A stretch of 64,000 nucleotides of DNA, taken from Apiotrichum sp. Y4204. Its lineage: Eukaryota; Basidiomycota; Tremellomycetes; Trichosporonales; Trichosporonaceae. A program made the position numbers and the translations under genes. Positions within the stretch are counted from its first letter, which is position 1. Each line of letters opens with the position of its first letter. Shown here in pieces: positions 13,027 to 49,307 of this stretch. The stretch covers positions 109,544 to 173,543 of the forward strand of contig JAMYHL010000084.1 in the NCBI GenBank assembly GCA_025531455.1. The letters run 5' to 3'. Under the pieces are notes generated by a model. That model saw only the letters and a program-made list of their open reading frames with translations. It did not search any database and had not been told where the DNA came from.

Positions 13027-13890
13027 ATGCTCGCTACCACCCTCGCTCTCGTCCTCGCGACCCTCGCCGCCGCCCAGAACCCCTGCCAGCCCTCGTCCTC
13101 GTCCTCGGCGCCCCCCACCACCTCGAGCCCCCCGCCCCCGCCCGCCGGCATCGCGCTCCACCCCAACGGTGACGCCACCAAGTGCCTCGACGTCCGCGGC
13201 GCCAACTTTGCCAACGGCACCCCCGTTCAGATGTGAGCTTTTTCAAAGTTTTACCTGGGGATCGCACTGACAACAGCTACGACTGCAACGGCACGGGCGC
13301 CCAGAAGTGGGTCCTCAAGAAGGGCGCTGGACACGTCCAAGTTGCTGGCACCAACTTCTGCCTTGACGCCGGCCTTAGTGAGTACATTGTGGATGGGGAC
13401 ATAATCAGGTGACGGATGCCGTCTATCGTGATCGTCCAATCTCATGTGGTGTGGCTCTGCCTAAGTCCCTACTAACAACAGACCCCGCCAACGGTGTCGG
13501 CATGAAGATCTGGCAGTGTAAGCTAACCTCGTACCTCCGACGCTGACAGGCAGGCTACGACAACGTTCCTCAGCAGAACTGGTACTGGACCGGCGACGAC
13601 CGTGTCGCTCTTACCGTGAGTACTTATGCAGGACAGAGCTGACTCCAGAACCAAGGTGCGCCCTTACGGGAATCCTAGCCGACCATGCATCACCTCCGTT
13701 TACTGACAGCAGGCTTCTGCCTCGACCTTCCCAACGGCTCGAAGACCAACGGCAACCAGGTGCAGATCTGGCAATGCGTGAGTCTCCTCTCTGCACCACC
13801 TCGCTGACAACCCCACAGGCGACCGGCAACAACAACCAGGTCTGGTCTACCGTCTCGAACGCGCGCCGCAGCCGCATCTTCCGCGAGTAA
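13027..13890 (+). CDS. Secreted ricin-B-fold (beta-trefoil) lectin
   Basis: Small extracellular carbohydrate-binding protein; nothing suggests a catalytic or toxin chain. Exons 13027-13232, 13277-13377, 13482-13517, 13554-13615, 13649-13655, 13713-13777 and 13819-13890 give 182 residues. There is a signal peptide (MLATTLALVLATLAAAQ), a Ser/Pro linker, then one trefoil domain. Its sugar-binding sub-repeats are seen as CLDVRG...QIYDCNGTGAQKW, FCLDAGL...KIWQCYDNVPQQNW and FCLDLPNG...QVQIWQCATGNNNQVW, each ending in the QxW-type motif. Exon 5 is only 7 nt (encoding NQ and one base of G) and intron 4 is 33 nt. Without this microexon the third repeat falls out of frame, so the model is well supported. 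Likely roles are cell-surface or environmental glycan binding. Confidence 0.88.
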
Positions 13891-20704: not shown

Positions 20705-20872
20705 GCTGCGAGTGTGGCAGCAGAGTGATTAAGAAGAAGTCTCTACAGCTTGCAAGTGTTTTGGGTCTGTAGCTTGTCGCGCGGGGCGCTCTTGATGAAT
20801 TAGTTTTGTGGTGTACAATCAGAAGTGGAAGTGCATACTGTACATACATGAAAGACTACAACCATCTGCCGA

Positions 20873-21361
20873 TCAACTGGACGAGACCCCACCACCCCCA
20901 CCGCCGCCGCCCCCACCGCCCCCACCGCCCCCACCGCCCCCACCCCCTCCTCCGCAGCCACCACCACCATCTCCGCCCGAAAAGCCGTCACCTGTGTCGT
21001 TAGAACACCCTGACATGTAATGGCCGTGAGTGTCGTGGGTGCCGTGTGATGTGTCGTGGGTGTGGTGCGTATGGTGCCACGAGTGGACAGGCGGCGGTGG
21101 CGTCAGTCCGATAGTGGCCTCGTCGACACTTGAGTACGGTGGTAGCTGTTCAGGTGCGGTCGAGCAGTTGCACTTCTTGTTCAGATGGCGGGAACGACTC
21201 TCCTTCTGCTCGCTACTAATCTACTGCTGTCAGCATTCGGGTTGGTAGAGCTACTTGCGTGACCCAAATCTACTTACCCATAAGGAGATCATGGCGACAA
21301 CAAAGCACACTGCCAGGACAATGCCGAGGATAACAGGCCATGTAAATACAATGGAACCCAT
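20873..21361 (-). CDS. Small single-pass membrane protein A: LPxY motif, His-rich and Gly-rich tail
   Basis: Exons 21278-21361 and 20873-21220 give 143 residues. Exon 1 is almost only a membrane helix (TWPVILGIVLAVCFVVAMI) and ends in phase 0 straight after it. Exon 2 opens with a basic stretch (EQKESRSRHLNKK), which by the positive-inside rule puts the tail in the cytosol. Then come NCST, the motif LPPYSSVDEATIGLTPP, a His-rich block (VHSWHHTHHTHD, then HGTHDTHGH), a Cys/Asp segment and about 20 glycines with one Cys. LPxY is a known variant ligand of WW domains. The His block could bind metal. TATAAG lies 81 nt before the ATG. The upstream CAG acceptor would put a stop in frame, so the acceptor at 21221 is forced. 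No known family is recognised. Confidence 0.8.
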
Positions 21362-21441
21362 GCTGATGTTTGTGTGTTTAGAAGTGTGTTGTGCCGAATG
21401 GTGGGCTGGGATGTGCGGAGGAAGAGTTGCACCACTCGCGT

Positions 21442-21447
21442 CTTATA
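21442..21447 (-). promoter_or_regulatory. TATA-like element of gene A
   Basis: TATAAG on the minus strand, 81 nt before the ATG at 21361. Confidence 0.5.
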
Positions 21448-21887
21448 TTCCTTGACACACCCTTGTACAGTACATGTACTGTACGTACACCCATGACGTC
21501 GCATCAGCCAACGTGCAACCATGAATAGCCGTTGATAAGCAACACATCCGGGGCGATCTACATACTGACCAGGCATGCTTTGTGCCACTCCACAAAGTTA
21601 ATCTGGGAATCTGCACCGCAGATACCTCTAAAGTCTCCGAGCTGGTCAGCGTGTAGTCCAACAGGCCGACACGCCCACAGGCCGACAGAAGATGCGCTGC
21701 TCCGAAAGAAGCGGCATTCCTCACCACCTCTTGTGATCCTACCGGCCTTCACGGCCTTCACCCGGTTCCCATGACGCCATTTTCTCGACTAGCCGGAGAA
21801 AAAGCCTATGCATAATCCGTACAGCACACATCATCATCCCTCCGCTATTGTACATACCCAGTGGGCACTGTCGTGTCGCCGAGGCTT

Positions 21888-22264
21888 CTAGTGTTCAGTT
21901 GGCCGGCACTCTGGTGAATGCGGCGTCGGTTTCCGCCCGGCAGTCCGCTGACCGACGCTCTCGTAGCTCAGTTGTTGGCTCGCAGCGAGACGATCGCTTT
22001 TTCTGCGGGCGTCGTACTTCTGAGATCGTCAGTATTACACCTTAGGGGTCACGGGCATCCGCGACAGGATCGTTCTCTACAAGCACTCACATGTTTCGCG
22101 TACACGAAAATACAGATGAGGGAGATATACAGGAAGAGCGGACCCCACGTGATGACGGGCGGGTTGGTGTCTGGCAAGTCTGGGCGGTCCGGGGAGTGTG
22201 GGTTGCCCGGGGCGTGTGGTTTTTTGGACAAGATGTGCGGTGTGGGTGGTAAGATTGGGCTCAT
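21888..22264 (-). CDS. Small single-pass membrane protein B, unknown function
   Basis: Exons 22091-22264 and 21888-22019 give 101 residues. The N-terminal 40 residues are Pro-rich (RPDLPDTNPPVITWG) and followed by one helix, PLFLYISLICIFVYA. The intron is phase 0, directly after the helix (AKH). Exon 2 begins KYDARRKSDR, a basic cytosolic anchor, and continues QQLSYESVGQRTAGRK to the stop. There is no canonical PPxY; LSYESV sits where gene A has LPPYSSV and may be a degenerate copy. TATAAAA is 80 nt before the ATG. Codon use is G/C-ending in both exons. Architecture and position tie it to the neighbouring genes A and C, although overall identity is low. Confidence 0.72.
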
Positions 22265-22343
22265 TGTACTGTATGTGGTGACTGTCGTCGGTGATGGAGG
22301 ATGGCGGGATACACATCAAATTGTCCAAGACACGGCCCTGTCT

Positions 22344-22350
22344 TTTTATA
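22344..22350 (-). promoter_or_regulatory. TATA box of gene B
   Basis: TATAAAA on the minus strand, 80 nt before the ATG at 22264. Confidence 0.6.
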
Positions 22351-22689
22351 AACCCCTCAAGACGGCCACGAACTGCATGGGAGAAAATCTCGGCGAAGTT
22401 TAAGCCTTGCTGGTGGAGCTCCAACTGCCGAGCAGAGTAACGGCACAGCCCTGGATCGCGTACGAAAAGGCACGAAGGCCGAGACACGGTCTACAATACG
22501 TGCATATGCTATAAACAATACTCGGCATCTACTGTGACTCCGCCCAAGCCACGAACCGTCCACTGGGTCGAGGATTTGACGCGGGTCAATGGTGAATATG
22601 ATTGTGGGTATCTATCTAGTGCTCTAATCGTGGGTATCAAACTGTCCCTCCCGGAGGTATCTCAAATCACGGGTGTTGTGGTTGTGGCA

Positions 22690-23044
22690 TCATGCCTTGC
22701 GGTCACCAGTCGGCGGGTTCAGGCCAATGCTCGCCTCCTCGACGTCGTACGCCGGCAGGCCATCTGGCCTAGGGGCAACTGCATGCCTAGGGGCAACTGG
22801 GGCCACCGATGCGGAGCTTGTGGCGGGGACAGAAGATGGGGCTGTTGCCGGAACGGGGAGGACGGGGGCCCGAAGCGTGGGCGGGGCAGCCGCGGTGCTC
22901 ATGGGGAAGCGCTTGAAGAGCTGGGATGTGAGCAGACGAAGCATGCACGGCCAGCGGGAAACTTACAAAGTAGGTGATGTTACAGATGCCCATCACGAAG
23001 ATGACCACCGAGAGAATGATAATGATGACGGTTTGGGATGCCAT
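22690..23044 (-). CDS. Small single-pass membrane protein C: LPxY motif
   Basis: Exons 22967-23044 and 22690-22920 give 102 residues. Exon 1 is MASQT plus the helix VIIIILSVVIFVMGI and ends CNITYF in phase 0. Exon 2 starts with the basic LFKRF, then a long Ala/Pro/Val-rich linker, and ends GLPAYDVEEASIGLNPPTGDRKA. The segment LPAYDVEEASIGLNPP aligns with LPPYSSVDEATIGLTPP of gene A over its whole length, which shows that the two are paralogues despite different linkers. LPxY next to acidic residues is a plausible WW-domain ligand. A TATAAG element is 139 nt upstream. No extracellular domain exists beyond four residues, so the protein is essentially an anchored tail. Confidence 0.8.
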
Positions 23045-23980
23045 GTTGATGATGTGTGGTGGGAGTGTCTGGTCTAGGGTGTCTATGCGTTAAACCTGTG
23101 TGTCTATGCGTGTCCAAGTCGGTGCAGCTCTAGATGTCTATCGGGAAGATTGTGTTCTGGAAGTGATGAAGAACCATCGCATCTTATACCATCCACCACT
23201 TCACTCAACCCCCCGCCAACACGTCAGGCATTAACCATACTTTACCGCTCGCAGATCACTCTCACTTCACAGCATCACGTCAGGCGATCCATGCTGTGCG
23301 CACATTCACTCCGAACGCGTCGGGCTTCGGACACTTTTCGCGTTCGATCCTGAGGATTAAGAGCTCTGGAGCTGCGGTACTGCTGGGCAGGGCGCTGATG
23401 ATACAAGGAGAGAGCAGGACAGCTCCAAACTCTAAACTCAGCGACCGGATAAAGGGTACCCTCTGGCAGCCCGCTAAATAGGACATCTGGAAGTCATGGC
23501 ATGGGCACCATTTTGCCAGATCCCAGCTAGCCCCGATCCATGTGCACAGGATTTGCTACAGCGCTGCCTGCTGTGTATCCCCGCGAGCCGACTGTGGCGA
23601 GAGTTGCGACACTACTCCTGCCAAGAGTATCCAAGATCGTGCCTTCATGGCTCACATCCACAGGTTCCAGACTCGGAACCACATTTCCTTGCAGACTGGC
23701 TACTCGGATACAAACACTGTTGAGAAGAGCCGAGAAGATAGAAGATGCCGCAGAAACTACGGGCTTACGAGGGGGCGGTGTCACAATCGTCATAAGGCAA
23801 CGCAGTAACGTCTCTGCAAAAGACCGCACCATCAGATCGTCAACCGGACGAACAATCGAGCCCGTGACACAGCCCTTCGAGTCAGTTCTTTGAACATACT
23901 GTACATACATCTAGCCGGCTTAGCGTCTACGGACGGTCCATTTACTGTAGCAAACCTCCACTATAACGGCCTCACTGAAC

Positions 23981-24564
23981 TCAATATATCGTAGGGATGT
24001 CTTCGTCGGCGCGATTCGATGGCCCAGCTACACTCGACGCGCCGGCGTAATTCGACGGCCCAGCGACGGCATTAGACGGCCCAGAGACACTCGACGGCCC
24101 AGCCCGACTACTCGACGCGACCGCGTTCCCGCCATAATCGTAAGGATTGCTCCCCTCAGCGTAGTTCACAGCGATAACGCCGGGAATGGTAGACGGGTCC
24201 GCCGCGCGCATGACGACGTCAATGTCCCGCGGCCGGAGCGGGTTCCGATTCTGGTCGGCATGGAGGGGCAGCGAAGCGGTGTTGCGCGGCCGGCTCTTCC
24301 TATTAACCTGAGTGTCAGCGGACATTGACGTTGCGGACTCACGTAGTATACCAGACAGAGTAGGAGGCCCAGGAATACAAGGCCCCCGACAATCCCGCCC
24401 GCGATCTTTTCCGTTGATTTCTGCCAGGCATTAGAGTCTTCCTGGTATCTGAAAGTGGCTGTAGCTGTGGGGAGGTAGGACCAGTACGAGTACGTCTGTG
24501 TTGTGGTGCCGGTGGTGGGTATAACATAGGTGTGGGTGACTTTATAGGTGACGAGGACTGACAT
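23981..24564 (-). CDS. Small single-pass membrane protein D with Ser/Gly/Pro repeats in the tail
   Basis: Exons 24343-24564 and 23981-24307 give 182 residues. A Thr/Tyr-rich outer segment (residues 1-52) is followed by the helix IAGGIVGGLVFLGLLLCLVYY, with GG pairs that suit helix packing. The intron is phase 0, directly after the helix, and only 35 nt long. Exon 2 begins VNRKSRPR. The tail carries an imperfect repeat of GPS(S/N) units (AGPSSVSGPSNAVAGPSNYA) and ends DEDIPTIY. No PPxY was found. The ATG at 24564 was preferred to 24582 because TATATAG ends only 28 nt from the latter. It resembles the membrane-proximal part of wall sensors (short Ser/Thr ectodomain, GG helix), but it lacks a signal peptide and a cysteine domain. 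Confidence 0.75.
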
Positions 24565-24582
24565 GGCTGTTGGCGCTTGCAT

Positions 24583-26179
24583 CTCCCTCCGGTCCAGCTC
24601 ACACCTTGGCTATATATCCAAGTATCATTGACTCACGCACACGCGTCGATACAGAGATGTGTAGTTGCAGCTGCAGCTGCAGCTACATCTACATGACCTC
24701 TGCAACTCCCACAACTGCACCAATAATGGCGATGCTTGCACTGCAGCCACACAGCGCTTGCTGACGCAAACCTTAACAACCTTACTTCGATTCCCGGTCA
24801 GATGATGCAGCCACACGGCGGGCCGCTGCAATTCATTACGGCACATGTAGCTGGATGGTTGAGAGGCGCCTTCTGTTTCTTGCCAGAGACTCACGATTCG
24901 AATCCGATTGCAATCGGTCTATAATGACAGCTTCCTTTCGGCGGTGTAATGCCTGATTCCTGTTCGAATCCAAAGTTTGAGGTGGAGCAGCTACGCACAG
25001 CCAGCGTTCCCATTCATCAACGAGTGCGACATCTGATAAAGTCCAGATGACAATCCGGGAGACAATATCTGAACCCGTACAACGGAGACTGCGCGATGGT
25101 CCGAAGACAACGACAAAACAGCAGAAGCAACGCCTCCTGTTTCCAGCACGCGGTCTGTTTCATGTGATGTGAAACATCTGCTCTTTCGGTCGAGTCGTGA
25201 ACGCCCACTCGTTATCAGTGATGTTGAACACGTAGCCGACAGTGCCAACCGAGAGGCCGTCATTCAGTCGTCGCGGTGGTGTCGTGGGCGGGTCTCCGGA
25301 ACAGAAGTGAAACTCTTCCGGCCCTCTAGATGAATGCGGATTCTGGCTGGGGAATGTGTTGCGGAAAGACACAATCTGCAATCTGAGGATCCAGAGTCCA
25401 CACAGATCAGCGCGGACCCATTGTCAGGGTATCAGGGTTATTGGGGAGGATCTGATCAACAGGATCAGAGGTATGTGGCGCGTACGCGCGTACGCCAGTG
25501 ACGTGATCCATCCATCTACGCGACCGCACACCCCAGAATTCGCGTCTTGGCGCGGGAAGCGCGCGGCGGGCAGAGTGACGGACAACGGTATCGCGCCTCA
25601 CGCAACACGCAACTAGCACAACACACCACACACTACGCAGGCAGAGGTGAATTTTGGCGGCGCAGGGGACCCCCGCATGGAGCTCAACAGAAAGTTAGGT
25701 TGGTGGGGTCCTCGGTGGGGCCGGGGAGATGTCACCGAGTTGGCCGTGTTCGTAGCTCGGCCCCGCGGCCCCTCTGTCCCTGGGCGGACGGCGTCGGAAA
25801 CGAAGACTCCACCAATAGAAATTTGCGGACTTGGGGATGAGGGTTTGAGTACGTTTGATGCGCCGCGCACTTGGGATGTGCTGTTTGTGACAACTAGACG
25901 AGCTCGTTCCATCCTCTCAGCCCCAACGTGCTCTTCCATCCCATTGCACCTGCTTTCATCAGCCGCGGCGATCTACTAGTTCTCGTCTAGTGTGGATGGA
26001 TCATTGCTGATCACGATTGATCCGGATGGCGTATGCCCCCCCGGATCCCTGAATCGGCCATATTTCCCAGATCCATCGTCTCCGTCGCGTCCTCTTATGC
26101 AGCGCCAAGAACAAAGAGCCCGAGATAAGTGACATGGTACAAGATATGGATACAGTCGATTGCCTCTCCTACACGCGGC
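24583..26179. other. Intergenic, 1.6 kb, between small genes D and E
   Basis: No gene is supported. A run of GCAGCT units lies at about 24667-24690. An isolated TTCGAATCC appears twice (near 24894 and 24964) without a surrounding cloverleaf. Open frames between 25.5 and 26 kb lack codon bias. Confidence 0.5.
24610..24616 (-). promoter_or_regulatory. TATA box of gene D
   Basis: TATATAG on the minus strand; its closeness to 24582 argues for the second ATG (24564) as start. Confidence 0.5.
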
Positions 26180-26749
26180 TCAACAGCCTCCGGCACCCGA
26201 ATGTGACATGGCGGTATGGTGCGCGGTATGGTGCGCAGAGTGGTGCGTCGCGAGGTGGTGGTTGTGCATGTGCATGTCGTGCGCGGCGCTGTGTATCCGG
26301 TAGTGGCGGGGGTGCGAGACCGGCGGGCGGAGGATGCCGGCCTCCTCGTCAAAGCGCGAGTATGGCGGCGGCGCTGCTCCCGGCGTCGGGAAGCCGTACT
26401 GGTCGTAGCTCCTGTGATCCGTCCGTCGCTGGTCCTTTCCGCACTGAATGTCAGCAAGATTGATACTGCGAAACGTCGCTTGAGTCGCGGGACGGAGAGC
26501 CCAGACGTATCTCCCATCTCCCCATTTCTTTTACTCCCACTCCCAACTCACATAGCTCAACAGAATGACAATTAGGCCGATGCCAAGCAGCCCGCCCATG
26601 ACGGCCACAACCATGACCCACGTCTGGGGGGGCCCGCCCCGGTCATTGCTTGGGCGGCTCGACCCCCAGCTCGAGTCAATGGACGGCAGCGACCTGAATG
26701 TGCTGGTCGGCCACAGCCTTGTTGGTGCCGAATGCGCGATGGAGGTCAT
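26180..26749 (-). CDS. Small single-pass membrane protein E: PPxY motif, His-rich tail
   Basis: Exons 26552-26749 and 26180-26443 give 153 residues. A Ser/Pro-rich outer segment (1-43) precedes the helix WVMVVAVMGGLLGIGLIVILL. The intron (108 nt) is phase 0 after LLSY. Exon 2 starts CGKDQRRTDHR, then GAAPPPYSRFDEEAGILRPP, a canonical PPxY followed by acidic residues. A His-rich end follows (HDMHMHNHHLATHHSAHHTA), finishing SGAGGC. The PPPYSRFDEEAG segment parallels LPPYSSVDEATIG of gene A, and both proteins end in a His block and a Gly/Cys tail, so they are likely paralogues. TATATAG at 26851-26857 places transcription start below the alternative ATG at 26842, supporting 26749. Function is unknown. 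Confidence 0.8.
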
Positions 26750-27679
26750 GGTCGATGGAGTGGCGAGCGGTGGTGCCGCGTAAGTATGTGTGTGTGGACG
26801 TTCGCAAAAGTGTGGGTTCCAACCCAGTTTCGACCTGTGCATTGCCAGTTCTATATACGTCCCTCGCCCCTTGGCGTGGACGAACTGCCGGCTGCTCGCT
26901 GGATCACTGGGATCACTGGCCCGTCGCTCTGCAGCAGATCAAACAGGTACAGTTGTGGCGGCTGCTAAGACAGGTTAGACAGGCTGGACAGGCACAGGGC
27001 CCACGAGGCCTGGTGAGCTGGCGCACTGTTGCTGTGCCCGTAGCCCATGTGTCGAGCGGCAGCAAAAGCTTATCCTGCATGCCAAACAGAGTCAAGAGCT
27101 TAGAGGGGAAGAGGAAGTGGGGCATCGGGGACCTGAAGAAGGCAGGCGGGGGCGAAACGCCTGAGGGGGACACCGCTCCGAAAACAATCTGTAACACAGG
27201 TTCGCGGTCACACGAGGACCTGGTCAAATTAGGCTACAAATGTGCACACCGAGCGAACGACTAGGACAACTAACTCTGGCTCTTGCGAGGATATTTTTAC
27301 TCCACACCTGCCCATTGTCTGGCTACGGGCCACCACATGGCGGCTTTCACATGACTTGCGCTACAGTGGATCTATATGAGAGTATGCTGTGATGTTCCGA
27401 TGTTCCGGCATACCTATGACGCTGGCTATAAGTAGGCCGGCGTGCTGTCGATAGGCTGTCGTCGCCTGGCGAACTAAAAGCCGACAGAGTTGGCGACAGG
27501 TGGGTGAGGTACCGGGGGCTCGCACTCGGCGCTCTACCTCCATTGCGTGCAGTGCTGAGAGATTCTAAGCATCCCGGCCAAATCCGGTATCCCACATCAC
27601 TGGAACGCAAGGGGATATGCTGTAAACTACAGGGCGTGGCGAGTTGACGCGTTGACAGACAAAACGTCCCGGTGGGGTC
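26750..27679. other. Intergenic, 0.9 kb, between small genes E and F
   Basis: Promoter of E and 3' flank of F. No gene was found on either strand. Confidence 0.5.
26851..26857 (-). promoter_or_regulatory. TATA box of gene E
   Basis: TATATAG on the minus strand, 102 nt before the ATG at 26749; it excludes the in-frame ATG at 26842. Confidence 0.55.
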
Positions 27680-28342
27680 TTATGTTTTTGTGTCGGCGCC
27701 GCTATTCGTGACGAACAGCTTCTGGGACTCATTGCCGCTCGCATCCACGGAAGTGGAAGTAGATGCCGCGGAGTGGTTGAGAAGGTCGCGGGTGCTGCTG
27801 TACGGGTCGTCGTTGAGGTGGCTGCTGTACCCGCCCAGGTGCGTGGTCGAGGGCTCGGCGCCGGGATTGTATGCCGGGGGCGGCTCCGCCACTGCGGTAG
27901 CGGTCGCCGTCGCAGGGGGGGCCGTCACCGTCGTGCGGGGAGCGTACGTGGTTGGGGGAACGTACATTGACGGCTGTCCCATTGGGCGCGCGCCAGCTGC
28001 CATGGCAGAGGCCATAGTTGTGTTCATGCGGTCGCGCCTTTGCTGGCGGCGTCTCCGTGCAACAACCTGGAGAGTCAGTACGCTGGTACTTCAAGGCATT
28101 GGAGAAGGGACACGTTGTCCGGCATCTTCCCAAAGCCGCCAGGTACTCACACAAGCAATGATAGAGATAATGATACCGACCGCAAAAACACTGCAGCCGA
28201 CAGCGACGCCAATGATCCACTCCTTGGGAGGCCCGTCATCCGAGGGCGATGGACCAGGCCACGACCGCCCAGTGGATGCGGAGCTTCTAATGGTGGGGTA
28301 GGGAAGCTGGGCGAATATGGACGGGGGTTGGATCTGCGCCAT
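27680..28342 (-). CDS. Small single-pass membrane protein F: PPxY motif
   Basis: Exons 28151-28342 and 27680-28066 give 192 residues. The outer segment (1-41) is Ser/Pro-rich and ends DDGPPKEW. The helix is IIGVAVGCSVFAVGIIISII, and the phase-0 intron follows AC directly. Exon 2 begins VVARRRRQQRRDR, a strong cytosolic anchor, then a Met/Ala and Thr/Pro-rich stretch and AVAEPPPAYNPGAEPSTTHL, a canonical PPxY. The rest is Ser/Asn-rich and ends NSGADTKT. TATATAG is 117 nt before the ATG, the same octamer context as genes D and E. This is the longest tail of the minus-strand array. No enzymatic domain is visible; an adaptor or receptor-tail role is inferred from the motif alone. Confidence 0.82.
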
Positions 28343-47355: not shown

Positions 47356-48561
47356 GAGTCCCAGGAGCTCTGACGAATCACTTCGGGATCGGGACGCGAT
47401 TAGGATAATACTGGGATAGAAATATGTTGAAATGTTGTGGGACGGATGGTTGGATCGGTTGAAGGATGAGTTGTGTGATGCGTTATCTTATATCTTATCA
47501 GAAACACAACATGCAACGCCTGTGTACTAATGTCTCCGATCTCCGATGCCGTACATCTCCGATGCAGTACCCTCAGCAGATATTCATGTGAGACATGCTC
47601 GAGAGTCGTAAATGGCACGATGGCTGGTCATTCGATGACAACAATTCGATAATACGACAAACTGGAATACCAGCAGCTTTCGGGGTTCCAAGGTCCCACT
47701 CAGCGAACGCATCTCGTCCGTCGCTCGTGGCCATCGCGCTGCTCCTGCGCGCGTCTTTTCTCTTACGCTCTCTGTCTCATCGACGGGGCATGCATCACAG
47801 ATACCGCGACAGCGCCGCTGCATTCCTCTACATGAGTAAGAGCCGCGGTAGTCGCCAGCCACCAGTGGCCAGTGGCCAGTGTCCGTGGCCAAACGAGGCG
47901 GTGCCTGTCACCGAGAGACTTGTCCGTCGACCGGTGCAAAGTACGCGTTGCAGCAAAAGTCGAGCAGTGTCCCAGTGCCGCAGTGCCGCAGTGCACTCTG
48001 TCAGTCGATAATGCCCGTCTGTCTGTTCATCTACACGTCGTTGGCCGCCCCAATCCCCGATCCCTACTCATTGGTAGCGGTGCGTGGCAGTGAGAATCCA
48101 AGGGATCCAAGGGGGAGGGAGAAGCATCGCATTGCGCTGGCGTGCGCTTGGACCCTCCCCCCCCCCCCCCCCGGGGGGGCCCGGGGGGCGTCGGGGCNNN
48201 NNNNNNNNNNNNNNNNNNCGCCCGCCGGGACGACGAGGAGTGGGAGGACGTGTTCTCCTCCGAGGACGAGGGCCGCACGGAGCGTGGCCCCCCCCCCCCC
48301 CCCCCCCCCCCCCCGGGGTGCGACAGGGGGCCTTCGAGGCGCATATGGACGTGCTTGGTGGTCAATGGTCAAACAAACAGTGACTGCTTTCCAGCCGCCA
48401 TCACCGGCGAGCACCTAACTACTCAGCTATCCATCTTGGATCCACACCTCCATCGTCAGCACCTCCAACTCTCTATCCGCCACTAGCGGTCAAGGTCAAC
48501 GGCACTCCGTCCCGGTCTTCGGCGTGCCTCGAGTTTTTGCCACCCACCTCAGTGACCTGCC
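47356..48561. other. Intergenic with assembly gap and C/G homopolymers
   Basis: No gene is supported. It contains C homopolymers near 48157-48172 and 48288-48314, a G-rich stretch, and 21 N. The 70 bases between the N run and the second C tract read as an acidic peptide (DDEEWEDVFSSEDEG), which could be an exon fragment of a gene broken by the gap. Confidence 0.5.
48198..48218. other. Assembly gap (21 N)
   Basis: Run of unknown bases, flanked within 150 bp on both sides by C/G homopolymers that short-read assemblers do not resolve. Lengths and order here should not be trusted. Confidence 0.98.
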
Positions 48562-49307
48562 ATGCCCCCCTTGGCGGCGTACGCCCGGCGCGCCGACGAT
48601 GCAAATACACCGACACCGACACCCCCACCTTCACCGACGCGGCCGGCCGCGACGCCGACGTCGACCGACCACTCGGGAATCACAAAGGCCGGGCCGTATC
48701 TCCCACTCGTCATGGTGCTCGTCCTCCTCGTCGTCCTCGGCGTCTGCGTGCGTAGTGTACCTACTTGTGCTTGTTCTGACGGCAGCTCGGGCGCCGCGGG
48801 TACTGCCCCTTCCGCCGCCGCAGGGAGGCTCCGCCGCCGCCGCGGGAAGTGTCCCTCGTCTCCCTGCCCCGCGTGCGCCGCAGCGAGAGCGGAAGGAGTA
48901 TACTCACCCTACCCGAATACACGGCCGAGGCCGGGGAAGAGGAGGTGGTGCTCCTCCGCCGAGAGGTAGAAGCCGAGGGGCAGAGTGCTACTGATAGAGA
49001 GGGGGAGGGAGCTCGCGATGGCGAGGCAGCCCTCGAGGGGGAAGAGGGGGACATATCTCGCCGACTAAGCTCCACCTCCATCTCGAGCTCGATGTACAGC
49101 TGCGAAGATATACCTCCCCAGTGGACGCCGGCGCGGAGGTCATCGGATGCGGACGAGGTGGATATTGCGACGCCGCGGCATAGTCTCATGGCGCGGACGC
49201 CGACACCCGAGTCTTCGCCCCCGCACAGCACGGAGCTTCTCCGGCCGAGCGCCACTGCCGCCAACACCGCCGCCAACGCCCGGCATGGCATGTGCGTCAT
49301 TGCCTGA
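48562..49307 (+). CDS. Small single-pass membrane protein G: LPxY motif, acidic tail
   Basis: Exons 48562-48747 and 48786-49307 give 235 residues. The outer segment (1-47) is Thr/Pro-rich (NTPTPTPPPSPTRPAATP). The helix is LPLVMVLVLLVVLGVC, and the phase-0 intron (38 nt) comes straight after it, as in genes A-F on the other strand. Exon 2 begins LGRRGYCPFRRRRE, then RSILTLPEYTAEAGEEEVVL, an LPxY motif with acidic flank, then a long Glu-rich stretch and a Ser-rich region (SSTSISSSMYS), ending HGMCVIA. Position, intron phase and motif order show it belongs with the minus-strand array 20 kb away. No TATA box is evident, and the gap at 48.2 kb lies in its promoter region. Function is unknown. Confidence 0.8.

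Follow-up and report, generated by a model that had tools for sequence, protein, structure and literature searches.

A tandem array of two-exon, one-helix membrane protein genes encoding candidate Rsp5 adaptors in Apiotrichum sp. Y4204

Introduction

What are the six small genes that lie side by side on the minus strand at 20873-28342 of a 64,000-nucleotide stretch of the Apiotrichum sp. Y4204 genome, and what might their products do? The stretch (hereafter the window) is C166:109544-173543 in a 48.9-Mb genome of 182 contigs. A first-pass annotation, made from the sequence alone, described the six (A–F) as an old, fast-evolving tandem family of one-helix membrane proteins sharing one two-exon plan, and counted a more distant gene (G) as a seventh copy. 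The six gene models, taken end to end, span exactly 20873-28342, and the shared plan is borne out by the analyses described here. Absent from that annotation was a feature of the second exon: a [L/P]PxY motif (PY motif), present in five of the seven genes. We consider the chances about even that the array is a tandem set of Rsp5 adaptors, diverging fast outside this motif. The seven genes are as follows.

20873..21361, minus strand: gene A, 143 amino acids (aa) encoded by two exons that flank intron 21221-21277; PY tail with a His-rich and Gly-rich end
21888..22264, minus strand: gene B, 101 aa encoded by two exons that flank intron 22020-22090; without a PY motif
22690..23044, minus strand: gene C, 102 aa encoded by two exons that flank intron 22921-22966; PY tail
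23981..24564, minus strand: gene D, 182 aa encoded by two exons that flank intron 24308-24342 (35 nucleotides, nt); without a PY motif
26180..26749, minus strand: gene E, 153 aa encoded by two exons that flank intron 26444-26551; PY tail with a His-rich end
27680..28342, minus strand: gene F, 192 aa encoded by two exons that flank intron 28067-28150; PY tail
48562..49307, plus strand: gene G, an outlier that also follows this plan, 235 aa, with its intron (38 nt) at 48748-48785; PY tail devoid of lysine, no TATA element

The array, its second copy and the shared plan

Much of the window between positions 13166 and 64000 has an inverted syntenic second copy in the same genome, at C105:735380-782312, with 74-94% identity, as would be expected of a hybrid or duplicated genome. 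A search of the genome for WW domains found 28 places, nearly all of them paired, and this, together with the copy on C105, makes the genome look duplicated. Species of hybrid origin that carry two subgenomes are known from Trichosporon (PMC6642101). Genes A–G and their C105 copies were examined together, giving 14 introns and 14 proteins.

All 14 introns are in phase 0, and in each protein the exon junction falls at −2 to +3 residues relative to where the best 19-residue helix ends; the first-pass annotation had given 0-4 residues. The proteins are 101-236 aa long, and hydropathy prediction finds no second helix in any of them. The basic opening of exon 2 is likewise general: the 15 residues past the helix have a net charge of +2 to +6 in 14 of 14, and the 15 residues before it have a net charge of −2 to +1. 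By the positive-inside rule the more basic flank of a helix is the cytosolic side. Because the basic flank follows the helix in every one of these proteins, the exon-2 tail is predicted to be cytosolic, in an N-out/C-in topology.

A TATA-like element, sought within 200 nt of the ATG, is found upstream of all six array genes and of five of their six C105 copies. The earlier claim of such an element before each gene thus stands for the array; it does not extend to G, and the distance from the ATG is 52-144 nt rather than the 28-139 nt given before. Such elements occur in 5.5% of random 200-nt windows, a background to be read in the light of a pattern picked after the region had been read and of comparison windows that are not promoters. 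The elements suggest regulated expression of the six array genes. No word of 8-10 nt is common to three or more of the seven upstream regions. A perfect 20-nt palindrome (GTACAGTACATGTACTGTAC) is located at 21465-21484, just upstream of the TATA-like element of A.

PY motifs in the exon-2 tails

Exon 2 of A, C, E, F and G contains the PY motif exactly once, and exon 1 contains none in any of the seven genes. The motif strings are LPPYSSVDEATIGL in A, LPAYDVEEASIGL in C, PPPYSRFDEEAGIL in E, PPAYNPG in F and LPEYTAEAGEEEVV in G, and the motifs are positioned as follows.

21134..21145, minus strand: LPPY of A, in LPPYSSVDEATIGL; LPAY in the C105 copy
22747..22758, minus strand: LPAY of C, in GLPAYDVEEASIGL
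26360..26371, minus strand: PPPY of E, in PPPYSRFDEEAGIL
27869..27880, minus strand: PPAY of F, in PPPAYNPG
48909..48920, plus strand: LPEY of G, in LPEYTAEAGEEEVV

Measured against shuffles of each tail, the presence of the motif in five of seven tails has a P of 1.8e-6, and its presence in four of the six array tails (A–F) a P of 3.1e-5. The C105 copies carry it in the same five genes (P 5.3e-7), the sole change being one residue in A. Gene B possibly holds a degenerate form, QLSYESV, to be compared with QLPPYSSV of A.

The tails are also distinctive in composition. Those of A and E contain 11 and 16 histidines (10 and 16 in the C105 copies), and lysine is rare throughout, with 12 lysines to 62 arginines versus 105 to 186 in five other open reading frames (ORFs), a small comparison set for tails whose basic flank raises the arginine count. 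The tail of G (48786-49307, 173 residues) contains 0 lysines and 23 arginines, and that of its C105 copy 0 and 22.

Comparison with known PY-motif membrane proteins

The first-pass annotation knew of no described family with this architecture, a view that is not supported. Comm, Rcr1/2, PRRG and CYYR/Shisa all combine one helix with a cytosolic [L/P]PxY tail and are grouped as short one-helix L/PPxY proteins, poorly conserved outside their motifs (PMC5578492). By hydropathy prediction all 14 proteins are short with a single helix, and both copies of A, C, E, F and G, though not of B and D, place the motif on the side that charge assigns to the cytosol.

A WW-domain HECT ligase of the Rsp5/Nedd4 type is present in the same organism. 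Three WW matches above the cut-off lie inside one 721-residue frame on each of C126 and C145, and the C145 frame, the one scanned for HECT, matches that domain at 322 bits. We take its WW domains (first YYVDHNTRTTTW, second YFVDHNTRTTTW, third YFVDHNTKTTTW) to be of the PPxY-binding type. The closest named relative of this Rsp5 is that of Vanrija albida (79%), of the order Trichosporonales. By analogy, the motifs of the A, C, E and F tails are likely to bind the Rsp5 WW domains: yeast Rsp5 membrane adaptors carry such motifs, with Rcr1/2 listed as possible adaptors (PMC2810449), and PPPAY, as in F, is the core of the ENaC peptide used in PMC8509885.

Comm and PRRG4 resemble these proteins in motif context and are also short, with one helix and a cytosolic LPxY followed by acidic and hydrophobic residues; GLPSYDEAL is such an extended LPxY (PMC5578492), comparable with GLPAYDVEEASIGL of C and LPPYSSVDEATIGL of A. 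Conservation outside the motif is low in both sets, and Comm recruits Nedd4, acting as its adaptor for Robo1 degradation (PMC12101832). Comm and PRRG4 are, however, animal proteins; PRRG has a Gla domain, and Comm, whose client is known, carries several PY motifs. The likeness is one of plan and motif, not of tested homology.

Rcr1 and Rcr2 are fungal one-helix proteins with cytosolic PY-type motifs, and Rcr1 binds Rsp5 (PMC5578492). Membership of the Pfam RCR family was considered and rejected: F is the best match at 20.4 bits against a cut-off of 27.8, and the other six are unmatched at E-values up to 5. Nor does the match to F reflect more than helix, basic stretch and composition, since three of five copies of F with randomised tails still score 13.5-17.8 bits and the natural C105 copy is unmatched at E-values up to 1. 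Two weak RCR matches elsewhere in the genome look like low-complexity chance matches. CYYR1/Shisa proteins have one helix and PPxY motifs, but their Cys-rich N-terminal domain is absent from the array proteins, and the C105 copy of F matches CYYR1 at 16.5 bits, below the 31-bit cut-off. No Pfam family reaches its cut-off for any of the seven proteins.

The architecture is thus that of a known functional class. As far as these searches show, the array, the gene-plan signature and the apparent restriction to one lineage are new, and no fungal array of this kind was found in the open-access literature, as judged by titles and the beginnings of abstracts.

A putative role in Rsp5 recruitment

We propose that exon 1 would provide a membrane anchor and a client-reading part, and that the PY motif of the exon-2 tail would recruit Rsp5 to membrane clients. 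A client membrane protein would then be ubiquitinated and delivered to the vacuole, as Comm does to Robo1 via Nedd4, and the array proteins may be fast-changing tags for membrane-protein disposal. Genes B and D could be decoys or degenerating copies, and D may belong to another family.

Several observations weigh against such a role. Two of the six array genes (B and D) lack the motif in both copies, and a four-residue motif arises by chance in 0.9-7% of shuffled tails. Of the ORFs tested, those adjoining the array include no transporter gene. Among the known systems, yeast Rcr genes are reported not to reproduce the activity of Comm in the fly, and the effect of Rcr1 on chitin is said not to require Rsp5 (PMC5578492). 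The motif also fits cargo that is itself sorted.

Self-sorting is the main rival, which we regard as somewhat unlikely. The array proteins would use the PY motif for their own ubiquitination and sorting while doing another job at the membrane, such as sensing, or metal binding by the His-rich tails of A and E. Sna3 has two helices. It shares PPAY with F, binds Rsp5 through this motif and requires it for its own sorting; it is itself the sorted protein, and that paper does not show an adaptor role (PMC2171029). That the His-rich tails of A and E are kept on C105 is in keeping with self-sorting cargo, whereas the scarcity of lysine in the tails, and its absence from that of G, mildly favours an adaptor, tempered by the flank bias and the small comparison set noted above.

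It is improbable that the array encodes sensors of the cell surface or proteins linked to the wall, the PY motif being only incidental. The low-complexity N-termini of D, E and F, rich in Ser, Thr and Pro, would suit such proteins, as would the lack of a motif in B and D and several weak genome matches to the helix region of D; but the motif is far too frequent among the tails for its shuffled expectation and constant across the copies save for the one residue of A, and the N-terminal part is almost nil in A and C.

Searches for further members

A scanner for the plan (helix exon, donor, basic start and open tail) was written after the array had been seen. Nine donors pass in the 64-kb window: those of A, B, C, D, F and G, and three in phase 1 or phase 2 at one place. 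All six phase-0 passes are array genes or G, and four of the nine donors carry PY; E is missed by the charge rule, and D is missed on C105. On that contig there are six passes, all of them family genes and five with PY. Elsewhere, in 25 loci totalling 174,641 bases (0.36% of the genome, with 17 array-copy or overlapping Rsp5 loci dropped beforehand), five donors pass, three in phase 0 and none with PY. The array is a local concentration of the plan, and the small sample leaves room for scattered members.

Whole-genome searches with F, C, E exon 2, E exon 1, the A tail, D (first 137 residues) and the G tail, that is, with every gene but B, gave, besides the array and its C105 copy, only weak matches with E-values above 0.005; the search with F was limited to E-values up to 0.001. 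Two weak matches of gene E look unrelated, one having a secreted-type N-terminus and the other several helices, and so does a weak-match pair of G on C126 and C145, which is a piece of a longer helical protein. Three weak matches of C went only through the plan scanner, with the one on C1 also translated, and they fall within the sample that contains no PY-plan gene.

In a protein database, neither F nor an alignment of the seven sequences finds a homologue at E-values up to 1, although an Rsp5 query in the same database finds Vanrija albida and Cutaneotrichosporon species. The missing homologues are weak evidence, because a hit requires exact five-residue words in common and presupposes that small two-exon genes of this kind have been predicted by others. 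That the family is old, as the first-pass annotation suggested, is not shown, and the missing Trichosporonales relatives fit a young set or a very fast-evolving one equally.

Relationships among the seven genes

Each exon was aligned in all 21 gene pairs, with 1000 shuffles per pair. In exon 1, E and F align with a score of 93, and in exon 2, A and E with 73 and A and C with 57, none of which is reached in 1000 shuffles; to call the sequences nearly unalignable was too strong. When the whole genome is queried with E exon 1, the only matches are E and F, each on both contigs. C and G also exceed all 1000 shuffles in exon 1, with an alignment wholly inside the helix. Weaker links join A to B (2/1000 in each exon), B to E (3/1000) and D to E (1/1000). 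A tandem, fast-evolving set can be upheld in its common gene plan and, by sequence, in the common ancestry of A, C, E and F. For B and D common ancestry is suggested only, and for G the likeness is one of plan and PY motif alone.

We think it unlikely that these genes are not one family, E–F and A–C–E being related and B, D and G sharing the plan by coincidence. The weakness of the B and D links among 21 pairs per exon, the confinement of C–G similarity to the helix, and the position of G, 20 kb off on the opposite strand and without a TATA element, all agree with a mixed origin. On the other side, the phase-0 seam lies at the helix end in all seven, and just three phase-0 donors pass the scanner in 174.6 kb elsewhere.

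Gene E matches F by exon 1 and A and C by exon 2, a pattern consistent with, though no proof of, tandem duplication in which exons were mixed at the phase-0 seam. A fuller version of the adaptor proposal, tentative and rather speculative, is that the array encodes modular, fast-diversifying Rsp5 receptors. Exon 1 would be a changing anchor and client reader and exon 2 a fixed ligase hook, with a seam that allows reshuffling, the whole forming a one-lineage, tandem-expanded fungal counterpart of Commissureless; the His tails of A and E could make recruitment metal-dependent. Fungal Rsp5 selects its membrane targets through adaptors. Those that are short, with one helix, almost escape homology searches, since little beyond four residues and a helix is conserved. 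The gene plan (helix exon, phase-0 intron, PY tail) offers a handle for finding such adaptors in other genomes, and the array makes it testable whether new ligase receptors arise via tandem duplication and exon mixing.

Introns and selection

All 14 introns begin with GT and have a branch-like CTNAY 10-13 nt before the 3′ end, which is YAG in 13; the array introns are presumably spliced. Intron lengths in the window and on C105 differ by non-multiples of three in F (84 and 88 nt), G (38 and 33) and A (57 and 91), and the frames are open in both copies. The acceptor of A is not unique, giving an intron of 57 or 72 nt. The C105 copy of D (C105:774808-775205) has a GAG acceptor and a broken exon-2 frame, which may reflect decay of this copy or an error in the assembly.

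Ratios of nonsynonymous to synonymous substitution rates (dN/dS) against the C105 copies are 0.49 for A, 0.29 for B, 0.35 for C, 0.42 for D (over the first 120 codons, because the broken frame truncates its C105 copy), 0.26 for E, 0.14 for F and 0.34 for G. Gene A is the most diverged from its copy, at 61% identity with a dS of 0.56; the others have 83-95% amino-acid identity. All seven ratios lie below 0.5, which shows that the array genes, and G with them, are under purifying selection. That these are spurious or decaying reading frames is very improbable given these ratios, the intron signals and the TATA-like elements of all six array genes, even with the broken frame and GAG acceptor of the C105 copy of D and with no homologue in a database that includes related species.

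Read-through of the intron would bring a stop 2-21 residues past the helix. This holds for B, E and F in both copies, for A in one copy, and for C and G in the C105 copy. The read-through product would be the anchor without the PY tail.

Other features

Pfam families were found in three of ten neighbouring ORFs: an MFS transporter, an FMO-like protein and an amidase. Shortly upstream of G, at 48156-48315, long C and G runs surround a block of 21 N, probably an assembly problem. On the minus strand the word ATGTATGTACAGTATG is found near 20844, soon past the stop codon of A, and again near 23905, soon past that of D.

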